Notes: generated by a model not told the origin, from the sequence alone. Shown: positions 54,378 through 63,042, counted from the stretch's first letter. The stretch is 64,000 bases of DNA from Candidatus Poribacteria bacterium (GCA_026710795.1 JAPOQK010000066.1:1-64000); one strand, 5' to 3'. Made by a program: numbers and translations.

Positions 54378-56207
54378 TTATCCTCCCGTAATTACAAAGA
54401 TTGCTTCACGAAATTGACCAAGTGGACGTGCGTTATAGGTAATGTCTACAGGAACGACTATTCGTCCTGATATAGAGACGTGTTGCGGAATCGGAATAGA
54501 AAAATCAATGAATCCATCTGTCCTCGGTGGAATTGTTGTCTCTTTCGGATCGATACCCACACCCCATGGTCCGGGAAAAATTGGTTGCACAGTTGCTGTC
54601 CGCGGTTCATGTGAATGGTTCGTTATCTCTACGTGCAATTGTGCTGTACCTCCCTGTGCAACTTCCTGTTCATAAGGATAGCAACGCACCCAATGTTCAT
54701 CCATGCCGTAGTTAGCATGATCCCAAGGAAAGAGTTCTGTATAGCACTTTTCTCGTTCAGCAAGAGTGTTTAACATAAAGTCAATCTCAGTATCAGTAAA
54801 ATCAAACGCTGGATCAACATGACAGTTAAAGATATGTGTAGGTTTGAGTTCTTGAATTAGACGTATGCATTTTTCGTAACCGACATCCGCACCGAGTAGA
54901 TTCCTATTTCCAGAGCAGTAATCGTCAATTCCTGCCATCGTGAAAGAGTCACCCGAAAAGAACATACGTACGCCATGTCCTTCCACAAGCAATCCACCGT
55001 GATAATAAGTCTGACCCGGAAAATGGTATGCAGTCATTGTGAACTCATTCCACTGCCAAGAATCACCATCACCTGTGGTACGATCCACCCGAGTAACAGA
55101 GGGCGAAATACAGGGAAGCCTGAAACCGATCGGATTTGTGATTACACGCGCAACAATATCATCGGTTATTGATTCACAAGGAAAAGTCTCCTGAAACTCA
55201 GGAATGGCATTTACGTGGTCGTCGTGATAGTGCGTTATCCAAAACTGTGTAACCTCAGATATTTCACCGTTTTCTTCCAACTGCTGAATCTGTTTGATTA
55301 TATTCGGTGAACCACAATCCATCACAAACGCTTCACCGTTTTCAGAAATGATAATCCATGTGGTGCCAAAGTGTCGTAGGAAATCAGGAGATGCTTTGCC
55401 TTCACGGATAGGCATGTGGTCAGCACGTCCTTCAAATTCAGTAAAAAGTTTCGGAAAATAGTGACGGAGTGCTGAGATGGACACATATTTATCATAACAC
55501 TCCTCCAACCGTTCAAAAAGCATGTCAATAGCCTTGTCAGGGTTAGGCATGATATTACCGTGTGTGGGAATTAGTGCAGTTGGCGATGTCTGACGGACTT
55601 TTTCAAGACTCTCCTTGAGTTCATCACGCGCTCCAAGAAAGCCGTGATAGTCGCTGGTCTGCTGTCCCTTCTGTAGGCTATAGAGTTCCCAAATCTTGCC
55701 TTCATCATAGATAAGATCCCCTGTAAAAGCAAAACGTTTATCATCAACATCAATGAGGTAGGTAACACTACCATCCGTATGTCCGGGTGTTTCAAGGACT
55801 GTCAGCAATGCTGAACCCCACTCAATCTGTTGACCGTCAGTATATGTATCTGCCACTCGGATAGATTTGGCAAGCATAAGATTGTGCGGATGGCAGTTGT
55901 AGAGGTGCCATCGGTACTGAGAATTGTTCCAAAAAGTGTCAACCTTTGCAAACCACGATTCCTCTTTTGCAGGCACCCCAATACGGACATTATCTCCAAT
56001 TGGACAATTGAGTATACTATCGCGATGGTGATGTGTAAAGAGAAGATTCTCCGCGTTAGTGATACCAAGTTCTACACATGTCATATTGAATGTAGGACCA
56101 CTTGGATCAATCAGTATCGCCTTACTATCATCAAGGAGAATACCAGTATTTACATGTCCATGGTGAACATACAAGTTTTCACTCAGTTGAGTATAGTCTA
56201 ATTTCAT
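54378..56207 (-). CDS. Tandem metallo-beta-lactamase-fold hydrolase
   Basis: 609 residues with two MBL-fold domains and a C-terminal beta-sandwich (about 520-609). Domain 1 (about 10-230) has THHHRDS, where the last His of HxHxDH is Ser, with ETPGHTDGS and FTGDLIYDEG. Domain 2 (about 275-500) has the complete THYHDDH. It may hydrolyse an ester, lactone or thioester. It is the first gene of the six-gene operon; VOC, PhyH, the Cys-cluster protein and two paralogues follow. The fusion with a CARDB-like tail is unusual. Confidence 0.78.
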   Translation of the reverse strand: MKLDYTQLSENLYVHHGHVNTGILLDDSKAILIDPSGPTFNMTCVELGITNAENLLFTHHHRDSILNCPIGDNVRIGVPAKEESWFAKVDTFWNNSQYRWHLYNCHPHNLMLAKSIRVADTYTDGQQIEWGSALLTVLETPGHTDGSVTYLIDVDDKRFAFTGDLIYDEGKIWELYSLQKGQQTSDYHGFLGARDELKESLEKVRQTSPTALIPTHGNIMPNPDKAIDMLFERLEECYDKYVSISALRHYFPKLFTEFEGRADHMPIREGKASPDFLRHFGTTWIIISENGEAFVMDCGSPNIIKQIQQLEENGEISEVTQFWITHYHDDHVNAIPEFQETFPCESITDDIVARVITNPIGFRLPCISPSVTRVDRTTGDGDSWQWNEFTMTAYHFPGQTYYHGGLLVEGHGVRMFFSGDSFTMAGIDDYCSGNRNLLGADVGYEKCIRLIQELKPTHIFNCHVDPAFDFTDTEIDFMLNTLAEREKCYTELFPWDHANYGMDEHWVRCYPYEQEVAQGGTAQLHVEITNHSHEPRTATVQPIFPGPWGVGIDPKETTIPPRTDGFIDFSIPIPQHVSISGRIVVPVDITYNARPLGQFREAIFVITGG

Positions 56208-56258: not shown

Positions 56259-57665
56259 TCAATCCATCTTTTCAATCACAGCCATCTGTGTTCTTCCACC
56301 GGGTGCACCTTCATCCACTCTCTCCCAACGTCCTTTTGTTGTCATGATGACATAGTCTTTCGTAGCAGCTTGATTACCACGAGGAACAAAAACTCCCGGT
56401 GTAGAAATATTATCCATTTTCCAGTTCAGATAAGAAAATGGTTCACCAGATTCCCACACCCATTGACTTTCATCAGGTTCATACTTCAATCCAATCCAAT
56501 ACCATATATCTTCATAAACAACATCAAGCCAAACTTGCTCATCTTCACTTGTAATTGAGACGAGATTGGCGCCTTCAGCTTTTGCTTTAGCTTCAGCATC
56601 TTTTCTCGTTCCATCACACTGAATTGCTTTGTATGCATGCCCATTTTCTGGATTAACTACCCATACGTTCGGAAAATTTATTTGTAGTGGTAAAGGGAAT
56701 TCGTTTAAAGATTCTCGCTGGATATTTTCTGTATTATTGTCCTTAGGTGGTGAATCCGTAAGTTCAGATGGATCAATATCAAGGGTAAAGACCAAATCCT
56801 CATATATTTGTCTGTCTCTTACAATAAAAAGATCTGAGAGAGATTTCTGTCCAAGATAGGCAAGTGTTAAGGAATAAATACCGTAATCATGTACATTGAG
56901 TTCAAAGTTACCATTAGTATCGGTCTGTAGTGTAGAGATGTAATTGGAACTATTTGTTCCATTCATATCAAGTTGAAATATATTAACTTTAGCAGTCTTA
57001 TCAACAAGCGGCTGTCCATTCTTGAAAACAACCTTACCTCGGATTTTCTGTGGACTTATGTCCCCAGACTTCATTATAATCTCTACGTTTTGTATGTTTG
57101 CACCGGGTTTTATGGCAAAAGTTACCGCACCAGTATCAGGTGAGAATGGAAATGGATGCGGGTAGAACAATGCTTTTCCAAACTTTATTGCAGCAATTTC
57201 TGGTAAAGATGGCTGCCTATGTGGAGCTTGTTCCTCCGGTGGATTTTCCTGTTCAAGCAGATTATCAGGTATCACTATTAATTGAACTGTTCCAGACACA
57301 ATACCTGTAAGAATGAAGTTTCCTTCTCCATCTTTTACCGATTTTATATATGGTGGCTGCTCCCTTAATGCTTGTTCATCGGGTAACGGTTTTTGTAAGT
57401 GTTCTCTAAATCCTGGTGGATCCTGACGTAAGAAAGGATACAGTGTTTTGTCATATAGTGGATCTAATCCTCCGTATCTGCGGAGTTTCATATAGATTAA
57501 TACCACAGTTGAATCTACAACCGGTTCTCCACTTTGGTCTACTACACGTCCGGTTATTATTGGTGGTTTTTCCTCAGCCCAACTTTTGGAAGGTGCAACA
57601 AGGATTGACAAACTAAATGATATAAGTATTGTAAAGACGACTTTTGAAATGTTTGATTGTATCAT
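56259..57665 (-). CDS. Exported protein with regulatory-like beta-sandwich and C-type-lectin-like domain, type A (copy 1)
   Basis: 468 residues: signal peptide (about 6-30), two carboxypeptidase-regulatory-like beta-sandwich modules (ITGRVVDQSGEPVVD; RGKVVFKNGQPLVD) and a C-terminal C-type-lectin-like domain with GHAYKAIQCDG, WYWIGLKYEPDE, WVWESGEPFSYLNW. I chose ATG 57665 (GGGAGA upstream); a TTG at 57695 is unlikely. It is the last of four related genes; its type is shared with the gene at 58934-60175. Surface adhesion or glycan binding is a guess from the fold. Confidence 0.75.
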   Translation of the reverse strand: MIQSNISKVVFTILISFSLSILVAPSKSWAEEKPPIITGRVVDQSGEPVVDSTVVLIYMKLRRYGGLDPLYDKTLYPFLRQDPPGFREHLQKPLPDEQALREQPPYIKSVKDGEGNFILTGIVSGTVQLIVIPDNLLEQENPPEEQAPHRQPSLPEIAAIKFGKALFYPHPFPFSPDTGAVTFAIKPGANIQNVEIIMKSGDISPQKIRGKVVFKNGQPLVDKTAKVNIFQLDMNGTNSSNYISTLQTDTNGNFELNVHDYGIYSLTLAYLGQKSLSDLFIVRDRQIYEDLVFTLDIDPSELTDSPPKDNNTENIQRESLNEFPLPLQINFPNVWVVNPENGHAYKAIQCDGTRKDAEAKAKAEGANLVSITSEDEQVWLDVVYEDIWYWIGLKYEPDESQWVWESGEPFSYLNWKMDNISTPGVFVPRGNQAATKDYVIMTTKGRWERVDEGAPGGRTQMAVIEKMD

Positions 57666-57703
57666 CGCGAATATCTCCCATTCGGATTCGTCCAAAGTCT
57701 TTT

Positions 57704-58930
57704 TTATTTTTTTACATCTGGAACAGTTATGTTTTCTTTATCCTTTTCAATGATAGCTTGTTTTACCGCTCGCGAAAATGGACTGTTTTGTCCGATTGTC
57801 ATCCATTTTTTGGATGAGAATTCCATTGCAATACCAGCCATTCCACTGTTGGTAGTTATGTTGTCAGGTTTCTGTCCTTTTCTCCAATTTGTATATGTAA
57901 GGGGTTGTCCACTATCCCACTGCCAAGGTGCATCATTGACAGGCACACGCAAACCAATCCAGAAAAATGCTCTATCTTTATACAGTCCCTGTAACCATTT
58001 CTGTTCTGCTTCATCATTGATTGCAACAAGGTATGCATTTTCACTTTCTGCTTTAGATTTTGCGTCTTTACAACTATAACATTGGATTTTCTTGTAGGCA
58101 TTACCATTTGCCGGATTAACTACCCATACTGACTCGCGTTTTTTAGTCTTTTTTGTGTTTTTCAAGATAAAAACAAGTTCATCATGCCGTTCCCCTTCTC
58201 CAAGGACTATTGTATCAGATTGTAATGTAAAACCCTTATATGTCATTGAGATTTTGTAATTTGCTGCTTCATCCTGAGAGTATGTAACAAAATACCCTTC
58301 GTTATCAGTTTCAAAGTTTCTGCCCAATGTTCCACTGCTGGTAGTGGTAATACCACCTTCACGGATTTGTGTGCTACGCGAGCTTATTGACAAGCTTATC
58401 TCTTCATTCATAAGTGGAGTGCCATCTTCATATAGCACACGTCCTCGAATTCGCATACGTGGTGTTTTAATGTTGACAATCACATTCTCAAGATGTTCCC
58501 CCGGTTCAATAGAAAACGTCAATTTACCGAACCATGTTGGCATTGCCCTACGAAATGCAATTGAATAAAATGTTAGGTCACCGATTTCAATCGATTGGAG
58601 TTCAAAATCTGATCCATGTTCTGGGAATAGGGTTAGTTGTGATGAGACTGGATCGATATTTTTTATAGTAAAATTTCCATCCATATCTGTCAATGTCCTT
58701 AACCATATTGGAAAAGGAGTCCGTTGTTTTAAACTTATATGAGGTCCAAACTTTACTGGTTTAATAGCAATCAATAGATCTGGAACTCCTTGACCGTTTT
58801 CATCTAATACGCGTCCAGAAATACTTGACAGAATATTCTCGGCATTGTTATCGCTTATGATAACAAAGGTTAGAAAGATTATTATGAAAATAACTATGAA
58901 ATTAGAGATGCGAATTTTAAATCGTGCCAT
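57704..58930 (-). CDS. Exported beta-sandwich plus C-type-lectin-like protein, type B (copy 1)
   Basis: 408 residues: signal peptide, then ISGRVLDENGQGVPDLL, a family-specific middle (FPEHGSDFELQSIEIGDLTF, AFRRAMPTWFGK, IEPGEHLENVIVNI), second sandwich (IRGRVLYEDGTPLMNEE) and a lectin-like domain (FFWIGLRVP, WQWDSGQPLTYTNW). A KPDN follows at the place of the Ca-site EPN/QPD motif. AAGGAGG precedes the ATG. It starts 3 nt after the type A gene upstream. Confidence 0.75.
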   Translation of the reverse strand: MARFKIRISNFIVIFIIIFLTFVIISDNNAENILSSISGRVLDENGQGVPDLLIAIKPVKFGPHISLKQRTPFPIWLRTLTDMDGNFTIKNIDPVSSQLTLFPEHGSDFELQSIEIGDLTFYSIAFRRAMPTWFGKLTFSIEPGEHLENVIVNIKTPRMRIRGRVLYEDGTPLMNEEISLSISSRSTQIREGGITTTSSGTLGRNFETDNEGYFVTYSQDEAANYKISMTYKGFTLQSDTIVLGEGERHDELVFILKNTKKTKKRESVWVVNPANGNAYKKIQCYSCKDAKSKAESENAYLVAINDEAEQKWLQGLYKDRAFFWIGLRVPVNDAPWQWDSGQPLTYTNWRKGQKPDNITTNSGMAGIAMEFSSKKWMTIGQNSPFSRAVKQAIIEKDKENITVPDVKK

Positions 58931-58933
58931 ATC

Positions 58934-60175
58934 TTACTTTACCTCCTTCTCTATTATAGCCATGCGGACTCTACCTATAAAGTGTGGACCATGTGAGTGT
59001 GGACTATCTGGATTTATTTTCTTCCATTTCCCTATCATCTGTTTCGATCCCGAAAAAGTCATGATTGCATAATCATGCATAATATCTTTATGACGTTCTT
59101 TTTCATCTTTCATTCCGAAGAACCTTAGAAATGCTGGCGGTTGGTTAAGTTCAAGATTATCCTCAGCCTCGAACTCTTCCCAGTTTGTGTATATGACAGG
59201 TTCTCCGTTCTCCCATAGCCATTTTCCTTCCTCAGCGATGTCCGTAATTCCAATCCAATAATTATCTGCACCAAATGCAGTTTCAAGCCAAACTTGTTCA
59301 TGCAAATTTGTTATTGTCACCAGATACGCATTTTCTTTTTCTGCTTGAATTTGTGCATCAGTCCTATCTTTACATATAATTCTCTTATATGCATGTCCAT
59401 TTAACGGATTAATTATCCACATTCCTGGTATATCAGATACATTCTGTCTTCGATTGCGTTCATTTTGTTCTGGTACTGGTGGAGGTTCGGAAAAGTCTTT
59501 TGGATTACCGTTCAGCCTTAAAACTTGGGAAACAACTTCTCCTTCAGAAAGAACGAGAAACGGGTCAACTTCTGCAGAAAGACCACGGTGATTTATTGAT
59601 AATGAATATACACCATTTTGATATATCACAACTTCAAAATTTCCTTGTCCATCTGTTTGAATCGAACGACTGAAGGAATTATTGCCTGGAAAATCTAATG
59701 TAATACAATCAACATCTATATCTAAGAAGTCATTTGCCAAGGGTTCACCATTTTTGAAAACAATTCTGCTTCTAATTCTCAATGGATTTTCGGTGATTAT
59801 TTCAGCGTTATTAATGTTCTTTCCGGGAGTAATAGTAAATGGGACAGCTCCATCCTGACCAAATCCAGTGTAGAAGAAAGACACATTTCCAATCCTGATA
59901 GACTGTATTCCAACATTCTGACCGGGTAGACTAAGTTTAACTTGTCCTGATGGTATATCTGTAAGAATGAACCGTCCTTCAGAATCTGTTTTCATACTTG
60001 ATGTTGGGAGTGTTACAGTTACACCAACAATTGGTTCCCCATCGCTATTGATAACGCGTCCGGAAAATGTTGACAAGTCATCTTGTGCAACACTATCATA
60101 GGTTGTAAGTTGCCCCGTTAAAATTGACATTGATGTTATAAACAGTAATAGCCCTAAAAAACTTATACGTGTCAT
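58934..60175 (-). CDS. Exported beta-sandwich plus C-type-lectin-like protein, type A (copy 2)
   Basis: 413 residues with signal peptide, sandwich modules FSGRVINSDGEPIVGVTV and IRSRIVFKNGEPLANDF, and a C-terminal lectin-like domain (YWIGITDIAEEGKWLWENG, YTNWEEFE). The middle part (NNAEIITENP, NGVYSLSINHRG) parallels the type A gene at 56259-57665. GGAGAATTAAG precedes the ATG. Confidence 0.75.
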   Translation of the reverse strand: MTRISFLGLLLFITSMSILTGQLTTYDSVAQDDLSTFSGRVINSDGEPIVGVTVTLPTSSMKTDSEGRFILTDIPSGQVKLSLPGQNVGIQSIRIGNVSFFYTGFGQDGAVPFTITPGKNINNAEIITENPLRIRSRIVFKNGEPLANDFLDIDVDCITLDFPGNNSFSRSIQTDGQGNFEVVIYQNGVYSLSINHRGLSAEVDPFLVLSEGEVVSQVLRLNGNPKDFSEPPPVPEQNERNRRQNVSDIPGMWIINPLNGHAYKRIICKDRTDAQIQAEKENAYLVTITNLHEQVWLETAFGADNYWIGITDIAEEGKWLWENGEPVIYTNWEEFEAEDNLELNQPPAFLRFFGMKDEKERHKDIMHDYAIMTFSGSKQMIGKWKKINPDSPHSHGPHFIGRVRMAIIEKEVK

Positions 60176-60235
60176 TTCTTAATTCTCCATTTAAGCAGAT
60201 AGAAATTCAATCGACAATAGGTGCTAATTATAGAT

Positions 60236-61492
60236 TTAGTATACGTCTTTTTCTAAAATCGCATGCTTAACAATCTGTTTAATCGGGTTCGTTTGGTCTA
60301 TTGTCATCCATTTTTTTGTTGAAAAAATTAGTGCGATTGGAATTTCTTTACTACTGTTTAACTGATTATCTGGTTTGCCGGATGGTCCCCAATTGGTATA
60401 TGTGAGAGGTTCACCACTATGCCATTTCCAAGCATTACCTTTTGTTGGGAGATGCAGTCCAATCCAATAGAATTTTCTTTCATTAAATGTTGACTCAATC
60501 CACTTCTGTTCCGCTTCGTCGTTTATTGCAACAAGATAAGCATTTTCTTCCTCTGCCTTCGCTTTCGCATCCTCCCAACTTTTACACGCAATTTGTTTAT
60601 ATGCATGGTTGTTCTCAGGATTCCCTATCCACATAGCTTGTCGTGCTCTCACTCTTTCAGTTTGATTTATGAGGTGTTTTTCAAGTCCTCTAAGTCTTAG
60701 AATTAGATTTTCTTTACTTTGTCCTTTTTTTACTTTAAACCATTTTGTTTTCGCTGTTATCCCTTCATATTTTACTACAACTGAACCTTCTGGATCATTA
60801 CCTATAGCATACGACACAAAATAACCTTCTGCATCAGTCGTGACATCTCTTGATGAAGATCCACCGCCACCTCCTGAACTAAAGAAAAAGAAATCTCTCT
60901 TTATTCTTCTACGCTTAATTGTCAGATAAATCTCCGTATTTCTAAGCGGTGTTCCATCTTCTAACAACACTTGACCACTAATGTGTCTGGGTTTCTTAAT
61001 TACACTAACTACCACGTTTTCAAGATGTTCACCTGGTGCGATTCCAATCTTTGGTTTACCAAACCATGTTGGTGCACTCCGACGAAACGCCGTTGAGAAA
61101 ATTGTTATGTCACCGAATTTCAACGAACTAATACCATAACCAGAACCGTGTTCTGGGTAGACAATTAACCTTGATGTAACTGGCATAATATCTGTTATTG
61201 TAAAATGTCCATCCTTATCGGTCACTGCTGTTTGCCATGAAGATACTGGAGCGAGAAGTCCCATCTCAAAACCTCTGCTGATTTTAACAGGTTTAACCGC
61301 AAGTTTTAGATCTGGAATAGGTTTACCGTCTTTATCTATTACACGTCCAGAAAGGCTCGATAAGTTATCTTGTGCGTGTATATTTGATGTAAAAGCAAGG
61401 ATGAATGATAAAGTGATTACCAAGATGGTAATCACAGATACTCTGCACTGTACCAAGTGTATCAAGAAGTTCATAGAGTGGATGTTTTTCAT
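60236..61492 (-). CDS. Exported beta-sandwich plus C-type-lectin-like protein, type B (copy 2)
   Basis: 418 residues, first gene of the lectin operon. LSGRVIDKDGKPIPDLKL, VYPEHGSGYGISSLKFGD, AFRRSAPTWFGK, IAPGEHLENVVVSV and the second sandwich SGQVLLEDGTPLRNTE align block by block with the type B gene at 57704-58930. The lectin-like domain shows FYWIGLHLP, WKWHSGEPLTYTNW and a KPDN. I chose ATG 61492 (GAGGTGGG upstream); its 5' end overlaps, in another frame, a remnant of an antitoxin-like gene. A Gly/Ser/Phe-rich insert (FFFFSSGGGGGSSS) lies mid-protein. Confidence 0.75.
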   Translation of the reverse strand: MKNIHSMNFLIHLVQCRVSVITILVITLSFILAFTSNIHAQDNLSSLSGRVIDKDGKPIPDLKLAVKPVKISRGFEMGLLAPVSSWQTAVTDKDGHFTITDIMPVTSRLIVYPEHGSGYGISSLKFGDITIFSTAFRRSAPTWFGKPKIGIAPGEHLENVVVSVIKKPRHISGQVLLEDGTPLRNTEIYLTIKRRRIKRDFFFFSSGGGGGSSSRDVTTDAEGYFVSYAIGNDPEGSVVVKYEGITAKTKWFKVKKGQSKENLILRLRGLEKHLINQTERVRARQAMWIGNPENNHAYKQIACKSWEDAKAKAEEENAYLVAINDEAEQKWIESTFNERKFYWIGLHLPTKGNAWKWHSGEPLTYTNWGPSGKPDNQLNSSKEIPIALIFSTKKWMTIDQTNPIKQIVKHAILEKDVY

Positions 61493-61580
61493 TTGTTCCC
61501 ACCTCATCAATCAATTTATTTAGAGCTGCTATTGCCTTATCATATTCCATCTCATTACGAATTGAAAAGAATGGTTGCAC
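61440..61580 (-). pseudogene. HigA-antitoxin-like N-terminal remnant
   Basis: In one minus-strand frame the sequence reads IRNEMEYDKAIAALNKLIDE then HPLYELLDTLGTV, which closely fits the N-terminus of HigA-type antitoxins (I-R-T-E-x-x-Y-x-A-A-L...). The match stops after about 47 residues; the helix-turn-helix domain is missing and no HigB toxin lies beside it. It overlaps the signal-peptide region of the lectin-like gene in a different frame. Confidence 0.45.
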
Positions 61581-61653: not shown

Positions 61654-63042
61654 CTACTCTTCAGCAAACTGCGGTCTACCAAGAGCATCTGTTCTGCCTT
61701 GACGTTTATAGTTTGGCAGGTTTCCATCTGCATCTGCTAAGAGACGTTCATGTGCAAGAGCAATCCTATCTGCCCCTTTATCCGAAATATCATTCTGACA
61801 AGTTGGATCCGCTTCAAGATCAAACAGACGCATACCACTATTGAGATCAACACTTGAAAAATACCAACTTTTCGCGTCTTTATACCACACAGAGTTAACA
61901 TAACGACAGGTGAGATATTCACGTGAAGTGAATCCGCTTTTACCTTCAACCAAGGGAAGCAGACTCTGTCCTTGAATTTCACCCGCAGGTTCAACTTCAC
62001 TTGCAGCCATGACGGTAGCAGGGACATCAAGCGTATATACAAATTCTTCACACGTTGTACCAGCACCAGCACCGGAAGGATGTCTGACGAGTAACGGTAT
62101 ATCCATCGTACCAGGATACATGAAGTTAGCAGGTTTTCCTGTGGCTTTATCAGGATTCTCGGCAAAATTAGTGCCATGGTCACTTAGGAACATTATTAAT
62201 GTGTTATCCTTTAATCCGAGACGATCAATCGTATCCACCAATCTACCAAACCAAGTATCAACAAGGGTTACCAAACCTGCGTAGTTTGCCCTAACACTTG
62301 GTAAACGGTTTTCGAGTTCCTCATCTTTGAGTGAACCGTAGGGTAAATTGAGACAGATCGGTTCACGATCTTCTCGACTACCGTAAAGATCATAGTAGTG
62401 GATAGGTGCTTCCCAAGTTTCATGAGGTGTGAATCCGTCCACATAAAGGTAAAAAGGTGTATTGTTGTGATTGTGTTCTACAAATTCAATTGCTGATCGG
62501 AACAACCTTGCGGTTGGCCAATTTTCTTCTTCACGTTCAGGTTGAACATTAACAATATGAGATTTGACACGGGGTGCATTACCACGATATCTGGCAACTT
62601 GTGAAGGATCAGCATGTGCCCCACCTCGATATCTATCCTCTGCTTGCCCTCGGACAAACTGCCACTGTTGGAATCCTCGTGTGAAATTCATTCCCGGCAC
62701 AAAATAGTGCGGTACATCCGCAAAAAAGCCTGTATGATACCCATTCCTGACAAGAGATTCAGCTATTGCCGGTTCATCTGATGACATGGGCTGCCAACCT
62801 GGTGTATATACATTATCCCACGGCACGGGATTATATGAACTTATAGGATAAACACGCCTGCCTGTATGTAAAGTCCGGCGCGTCGGAATTGTTGGCAAGA
62901 CTTCAGGATGGGCATTGGTAAATTTAACACCCTCTTCTGCAAATCGCGCTAAATTCGGTGTATGTACCCAGTCGTTTCCGTAAGGACTGAGAAATGCTGT
63001 TCGAAGCGTATCTGAAACAACAACGACAATGTTCCAACTCAT
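61654..63042 (-). CDS. Sulfatase-family (alkaline-phosphatase fold) hydrolase with Thr at the catalytic position
   Basis: 462 residues with sulfatase architecture: metal Asp11 (VVSDTLR), THTPNL-like VHTPNLARFAEEGV, TPFY-LY block, and FLSDHGTNFAEN for the second metal pair. The nucleophile signature, normally C/S-x-P-x-R, reads T51-I-P-T-R55 followed by LHTGR. The Cys/Ser needed for formylglycine is therefore absent. It may be a phosphodiesterase-like branch using Thr directly, as in nucleotide pyrophosphatases, or an inactive form. No anaerobic maturase gene is nearby and no signal peptide is seen. Confidence 0.8.
   Translation of the reverse strand: MSWNIVVVVSDTLRTAFLSPYGNDWVHTPNLARFAEEGVKFTNAHPEVLPTIPTRRTLHTGRRVYPISSYNPVPWDNVYTPGWQPMSSDEPAIAESLVRNGYHTGFFADVPHYFVPGMNFTRGFQQWQFVRGQAEDRYRGGAHADPSQVARYRGNAPRVKSHIVNVQPEREEENWPTARLFRSAIEFVEHNHNNTPFYLYVDGFTPHETWEAPIHYYDLYGSREDREPICLNLPYGSLKDEELENRLPSVRANYAGLVTLVDTWFGRLVDTIDRLGLKDNTLIMFLSDHGTNFAENPDKATGKPANFMYPGTMDIPLLVRHPSGAGAGTTCEEFVYTLDVPATVMAASEVEPAGEIQGQSLLPLVEGKSGFTSREYLTCRYVNSVWYKDAKSWYFSSVDLNSGMRLFDLEADPTCQNDISDKGADRIALAHERLLADADGNLPNYKRQGRTDALGRPQFAEE

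Follow-up and report, generated by a model that had tools for sequence, protein, structure and literature searches.

Paired C-type lectin-like genes of Candidatus Poribacteria form a conserved two-gene cassette that is in places fused to sigma factors

Introduction

In ECF52, a group of extracytoplasmic function (ECF) sigma factors, e.g. SCO4117 of Streptomyces, the sigma factor is followed by a zinc finger, a transmembrane (TM) segment, a proline-rich stalk and a carbohydrate-binding module, and such proteins are reported only from Actinobacteria (PMC5826349, PMC8999054). IutY (ECF243) is a fusion of sigma factor and anti-sigma domain that takes part in iron-starvation cell-surface signalling (PMC8999054). 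Here we describe four lectin-like genes at positions 56259-61492, minus strand, of a 64,000-nucleotide stretch of a Candidatus Poribacteria genome (GCA_026710795.1, JAPOQK010000066.1:1-64000; below, the window) together with their relatives in this phylum, some of which are fused to sigma factors. The four genes make up a conserved two-gene cassette that is present twice and codes for two paralogous, probably exported proteins, a first (B) and a second (A).

The sigma-fused first proteins have their nearest described counterpart in ECF52, since both combine sigma factor, TM segment and an extracytoplasmic domain of carbohydrate-binding type in one protein. They differ from it in that no zinc finger was found, the stalk is of the CarboxypepD_reg type, the sensor is a C-type lectin-like domain (CTLD), a second CTLD gene serves as partner and the phylum is another one; the window pairs themselves are unfused. 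IutY is alike as a one-piece transmembrane sigma factor, but its anti-sigma and iron-starvation parts are not seen in the poribacterial fusions. With the mannose-receptor family (PF00059) the poribacterial CTLDs share the fold and the core motifs WIGL and W.W..G.P..Y.NW, PLA2R, DEC-205 and mannose receptors being the closest by profile homology, whereas they lack the usual disulfides and do not conserve the canonical calcium/sugar site, and their stalk domains are bacterial. The latter resemble CarboxypepD_reg-like/SdrD-B-like surface stalk domains (PF13620), two of which precede the CTLD in each window protein, but here they are joined to a CTLD, in proteins whose genes come almost always in twos. 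We found no literature joining Poribacteria, sigma factor and lectin, ECF52 and IutY being the nearest systems that ECF reviews gave. In the Poribacteria genome papers surveyed, a set to which Podell 2019 and Siegl 2011 do not belong, the main text mentions neither lectins nor sigma factors.

Results and Discussion

The genes follow each other in the transcription order B1-A1-B2-A2, all on the minus strand, and make up two pairs, alpha (B1-A1) and beta (B2-A2). They were defined by open reading frames (ORFs) and Pfam matches: B1 at 60236..61492 (418 aa), A1 at 58934..60175 (413 aa), B2 at 57704..58930 (408 aa) and A2 at 56259..57665 (468 aa from ATG 57665, with a possible alternative start at TTG 57695). 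Each protein has an N-terminal hydrophobic segment, two CarboxypepD_reg-like (transthyretin/Ig-like) domains and a C-terminal CTLD, located at 60308..60583 in B1, 59168..59347 in A1, 57797..58075 in B2 and 56397..56600 in A2. All four pass the threshold of the C-type lectin domain profile PF00059 (32-48 bits against a cut-off of 22.6), while NCBIfam gave no useful name for any of them. B1 and B2 have in common the blocks PEHGSGYGISSLKFGD/PEHGSDFELQSIEIGD, AFRRSAPTWFGK/AFRRAMPTWFGK and PGEHLENV; A1 and A2 share NGEPL/NGQPL, GVYSL/GIYSL and NAEII/NVEII. An earlier note on this sequence, which had read the genes as B-A-B-A with type-specific blocks, is borne out in both respects, save that its block NxxEII is better written NxEII. 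In BLASTP B1 and B2 are 46% identical (348 bits) and A1 and A2 30% (179 bits). Cross pairs of B and A reach 27-32% (113-162 bits), so that the two types are old paralogues, homologous along their whole length.

To see how general this arrangement is, we compared 84 loci of 34 poribacterial genomes, i.e. the window and 83 further loci from its own and 33 other genomes (below, loci and genomes are given as L and G numbers, the window's own genome being G000 and its contigs C numbers). ORFs and CTLDs were called, and every protein was typed as first (F, the B type) or second (S, the A type) with hidden Markov model (HMM) profiles trained without the genome under test. The window is typed F-S-F-S with margins of 79-147 bits (B1 +94, A1 -126, B2 +79, A2 -147), which makes it a regular case of adjacent F and S genes on one strand. 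The separation of the two types goes well beyond what chance would give. Among the typed arrays there are 44 FS, 10 FSFS, 10 FS with a sigma-fused first member, one FSFS in which both firsts are sigma-fused and three in which a contig end lies between F and S; F-F neighbours do not occur. CTLD genes stand on one strand in twos, fours or more, with a median gap of 33 nt from F to S. Alternation is broken by FSS in L026 and by FSF in L088, and the first/second label changes only four times among 166 even-array members (FastTree, 196 proteins). In one eight-gene array (L085 8493-11210, G021) genes 7 and 8 are FastTree sisters despite their first and second positions, with HMM margins of +2 and -13, and gene conversion is possible there.

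With a profile of first-type proteins the family was found in 67 of 85 poribacterial genomes. These comprise every one of the 59 genomes of f1, the family to which the window belongs, both of f2, 5 of 9 of f4 and one f5 genome, with no members in f3 or the remaining groups. Related loci in named genomes all belong to Candidatus Poribacteria, except for three weak Flavobacteriaceae matches (123-543 bases, E 2e-4). The window's own genome has 11 CTLD genes, distributed over the window and three other sites on C51, C68 and C94. The B-A pair is the unit of duplication, gain and loss, and pairing is near-obligate across the phylum, as the alternating arrays of the 84 loci and the separate monophyly of firsts and seconds (see below) show; here, too, the earlier proposal of a B-A duplication unit stands.

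The window array itself is not explained by a simple local duplication of a B-A pair. The array lies between a sulfatase-family gene upstream (61654..63042, minus strand) and a two-domain metallo-beta-lactamase-fold (MBL) hydrolase gene downstream (54378..56207, minus strand), which are 88-97% and 69-89% identical, respectively, in 13 other genomes. In these genomes, which belong to two genera, the slot between the two markers also holds CTLD pairs: one pair in eight of them (G002, G003, G007, G008, G009, G011, G014 and G016) and two pairs in five (G001, G004, G017, G021 and G023) as well as in the window. Outright loss of one pair member was seen in none of the slots compared. In G004 (L031 6757-7993) a frameshift divides the first pair's second-type gene into parts of 317 and 117 aa, which may be an assembly error or decay.

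In a tree of 40 orthologous-slot proteins (IQ-TREE, mixture model) all firsts fall into a single clade and all seconds into another, both with 100/100 support. B1 and A1 each group with proteins of G008 and G014, and B2 and A2 each with those of G009 and G016, placing A1 and A2 in separate clades of the unconstrained tree. The orthologues of B1 (83-84% identical) and A1 (63-66%) are in L044 and L064, those of B2 and A2 in L071 and L047. Constrained topologies were compared by the approximately unbiased (AU) test. A topology with B1 and B2 as exclusive sisters was rejected (p 3e-6), and a recent local duplication inside the window's own genome is likewise rejected, as pair alpha is orthologous to the single pairs of G008 and G014 and pair beta to those of G009 and G016. 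The pairs are old and separate. A closer relationship of A and B within one operon than of either to its counterpart, which the earlier note had named as the outcome that would speak against it, is rejected as well (AU test, p<1e-7; 4e-8 for B1+A1 and 7e-50 for B2+A2), and with it an origin of A from B within the operon. The split between A and B is older than the genera compared. Since the slot holds one or two pairs, with both lineages present in several genomes, it gains and loses pairs as wholes, and B-A-B-A is one of its states. Of this evolutionary part of our model, i.e. the pairing, the age of A and B and the gain and loss of whole pairs, we are all but certain.

Between orthologues the CTLD genes have ratios of nonsynonymous to synonymous divergence (dN/dS) of 0.10-0.34, mostly 0.16-0.34, by simple Nei-Gojobori counting, in which several dS values are saturated. 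Ratios of the flanking genes are lower: the sulfatase gene has 0.02-0.04, a phytanoyl-CoA-dioxygenase-like gene 0.04-0.10 and the MBL gene 0.11-0.14. The CTLD genes are constrained, yet diverge faster than their neighbours. A1 is a mosaic in comparison with its orthologues of G008 and G014: its stalk domains are 47-55% identical with dS of about 1.1-1.4, and its CTLD is 77-81% identical with dS of about 0.4-0.5. Recombination in A1 is hinted at by this difference between stalk and CTLD.

Because pairing is near-obligate, we infer that A and B act together, and a joint function appears probable. It could be argued that the two genes are hitch-hiking tandem duplicates that have no joint function and stay together as neighbours, every duplication copying both at once. 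The homology of A and B, from which it follows that the pair itself goes back to an older tandem duplication, fits this explanation. So does their co-divergence: over 82 pairs the distances among firsts and among seconds correlate with a Mantel r of 0.878 (partners shuffled within genomes give a mean of 0.25 and a maximum of 0.46, and none of 2000 shuffles reaches the observed value), but this is what linkage alone would give. We therefore dropped co-divergence as proof of A-B interaction. It is more difficult to reconcile hitch-hiking with the near absence of single first-type genes in spite of high-to-saturated synonymous divergence and purifying selection on both members, or with an orthologous slot that loses whole pairs, and we consider it improbable.

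Models of B2 and A1 were built with AlphaFold2 (AF2) from family alignments (pLDDT 87.7 and pTM 0.62 for B2; 83.3 and 0.54 for A1). In Foldseek the C-terminal domain of both matches the carbohydrate recognition domains of SRCL and CD23 (TMt about 0.77), and the N-terminal part resembles SdrD B domains and pilins, at low TM. When PDB sequences were searched with profiles, the hits were to the mannose-receptor family. CTLD folds are typical targets of diversity-generating retroelements (DGRs), and both the C-terminal position of the CTLD and the fast divergence of the genes would suit variable proteins of such an element. In the genome a single reverse transcriptase was found, however, a 580-aa ORF on another contig that by inspection reads as the maturase of a group II intron, its C-terminal segment being HNH-like. 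With no DGR-type reverse transcriptase found in the genome, this candidate, which would call for such an enzyme and a template repeat beside the genes, was rejected. Nor is divergence concentrated in the CTLD, the stalk of pair alpha being more divergent. We regard the DGR explanation as extremely improbable.

In 13 members of the family regions 2 and 4 of an ECF sigma factor take up about residues 1-200, after which come one hydrophobic helix (starting at ~223-251), the stalk and the CTLD. Twelve of these are typed first; the remaining one, in L094, holds the first position but is typed S, with a margin of 9 bits. In a quick tree the fused sigma domains fall in three places, comprising L091/L094, L018/L032/L050 and L017/L023/L030/L035/L039/L057/L069. 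The full set of ECF regions 2 and 4 plus a C-terminal extension is present, for example, in L017:3048-5117 and L018:5030-7186 and absent from the window genes. The Pfam matches of the sigma-CTLD proteins include no zinc-finger anti-sigma domain, and the TM helix of these proteins comes just after sigma region 4. The fusion of some first members to a sigma factor suggests a role of the pairs in sensing the surroundings of the cell. The phrase 'paired surface proteins', used for the window genes before, overlooks these fusions, which point to sensing.

Taken together, the pairing and the fusions lead us to a model in which B and A together would form a recognition module, carried on rod-like stalks outside the cytoplasm. 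In pairs with a sigma-fused first subunit, the state of this subunit could be read out as transcription; an unfused pair, as at the window, would be a secreted or anchored module for recognition or adhesion. Candidate ligands are a host glycan, a glycoprotein, or a self or non-self polymer. This combined model of an extracytoplasmic recognition pair that is sometimes wired to transcription, in which the steps we infer are worded conditionally, is the reading that we moderately favour. A signalling role for the family as a whole is suggested more tentatively from these sequences. Still more doubtful, though worth stating, is the idea that Poribacteria have a large repertoire of paired CTLD receptors serving as interchangeable sensor cassettes, in which a heterodimer of first and second would bind a ligand of the sponge or its community, sigma-fused firsts would turn binding into transcription and unfused pairs would be co-receptors or spare parts.

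Several observations weigh against the model. The window array has no sigma factor in cis, and a sigma gene located upstream would fuse to the 5' gene of the operon whatever its biology. The co-divergence of firsts and seconds described above is evidence of co-inheritance only, not of binding, as linkage alone predicts the correlation. Lone S genes exist, namely a clade of 690-700 aa proteins in L046 and L048 and a further case in L083; members of this clade are preceded by a CTLD-less sigma protein in L017 and L066 and have no such neighbour in L046 and L048. In the order-level genomes F/S typing is weak (margins <35 bits), with neighbours typed S-S in L093 and L099 and the sigma-fused protein of L094 typed S. 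As for the ligand, a regular-expression search found the calcium/sugar-site motif WND in none of 59 firsts and none of 74 seconds, and EPN/QPD-like motifs are rare (10 of 59 and 4 of 74). Most CTLDs have one Cys and thus lack the two conserved disulfides of calcium-dependent sugar-binding C-type lectins. A canonical lectin of this kind is rejected because its site motifs are not conserved; 'lectin-like' in the earlier description holds for the fold, which Foldseek and PDB profile matches support, and not for calcium-dependent sugar binding.

The pairs might also be nothing but secreted, stalked CTLD adhesins or matrix proteins for contact with sponge or biofilm, the sigma fusions being incidental shuffling in a large family of sigma-TM-X proteins. 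Most pairs, including those of the window, are indeed without a sigma factor, the Foldseek matches of the stalks are to surface-adhesin domains (SdrD B, pilins), and in the same genome sigma domains are combined with many ectodomains of unrelated types (WD40, BNR/sortilin-like, M16-like). Against this explanation, first-position sigma fusions are spread over three places in the sigma tree and nearly always have a second-type gene as neighbour, and adhesion alone leaves the two-member stoichiometry unexplained. We hold it to be unlikely, and prefer the recognition pair with occasional wiring to transcription.

Should the sensor-cassette idea be true, it would describe a one-protein signalling route from lectin to sigma factor in Poribacteria. 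Animal-like CTLDs are obvious candidates for the recognition of host or neighbours by sponge symbionts, and a CTLD family that is widespread, paired, repeatedly amplified and linked to sigma factors in several loci offers a concrete, testable signalling hypothesis.

The window's own genome has 65 matches to sigma-70 region 2. On the contigs inspected (C104, C70, C68, C105, C110, C55, C108, C38 and C98; L141-L150) these belong mostly to ORFs of 400-1100 aa with an ECF sigma factor, usually one TM helix and a large C-terminal part, and many sigma-TM fusions stand in tandem arrays. Ten such fusions were scanned: four have WD40 propellers, four (one of them from G009) BNR/sortilin-like repeats and one an M16-peptidase-like domain; in the tenth no domain was recognised. 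This looks like a large repertoire of one-piece membrane-sigma sensors.

The region upstream of B1 deserves a separate remark. In most orthologous slots the first pair is preceded by a higA-like gene, in some with a higB-like gene ahead of it; both names are provisional, no profile match being involved. In the window the first 35 codons of the higA-like antitoxin gene remain at 61446..61550, minus strand. In comparison with L064 about 320 bp are gone, and at the deletion junction (61442..61450) the remnant runs, through a short sequence common to both, into B1 at codon ~17. The native start of B1 (MNQFHCRES... in L064) is lost; its reading frame now opens at ATG 61492, within the remnant but out of frame with it, which gives B1 a chimeric N-terminus. 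In L044 (3623-5555, G008) the higA-like gene of the slot is broken by an insert with transposase-like ORFs.

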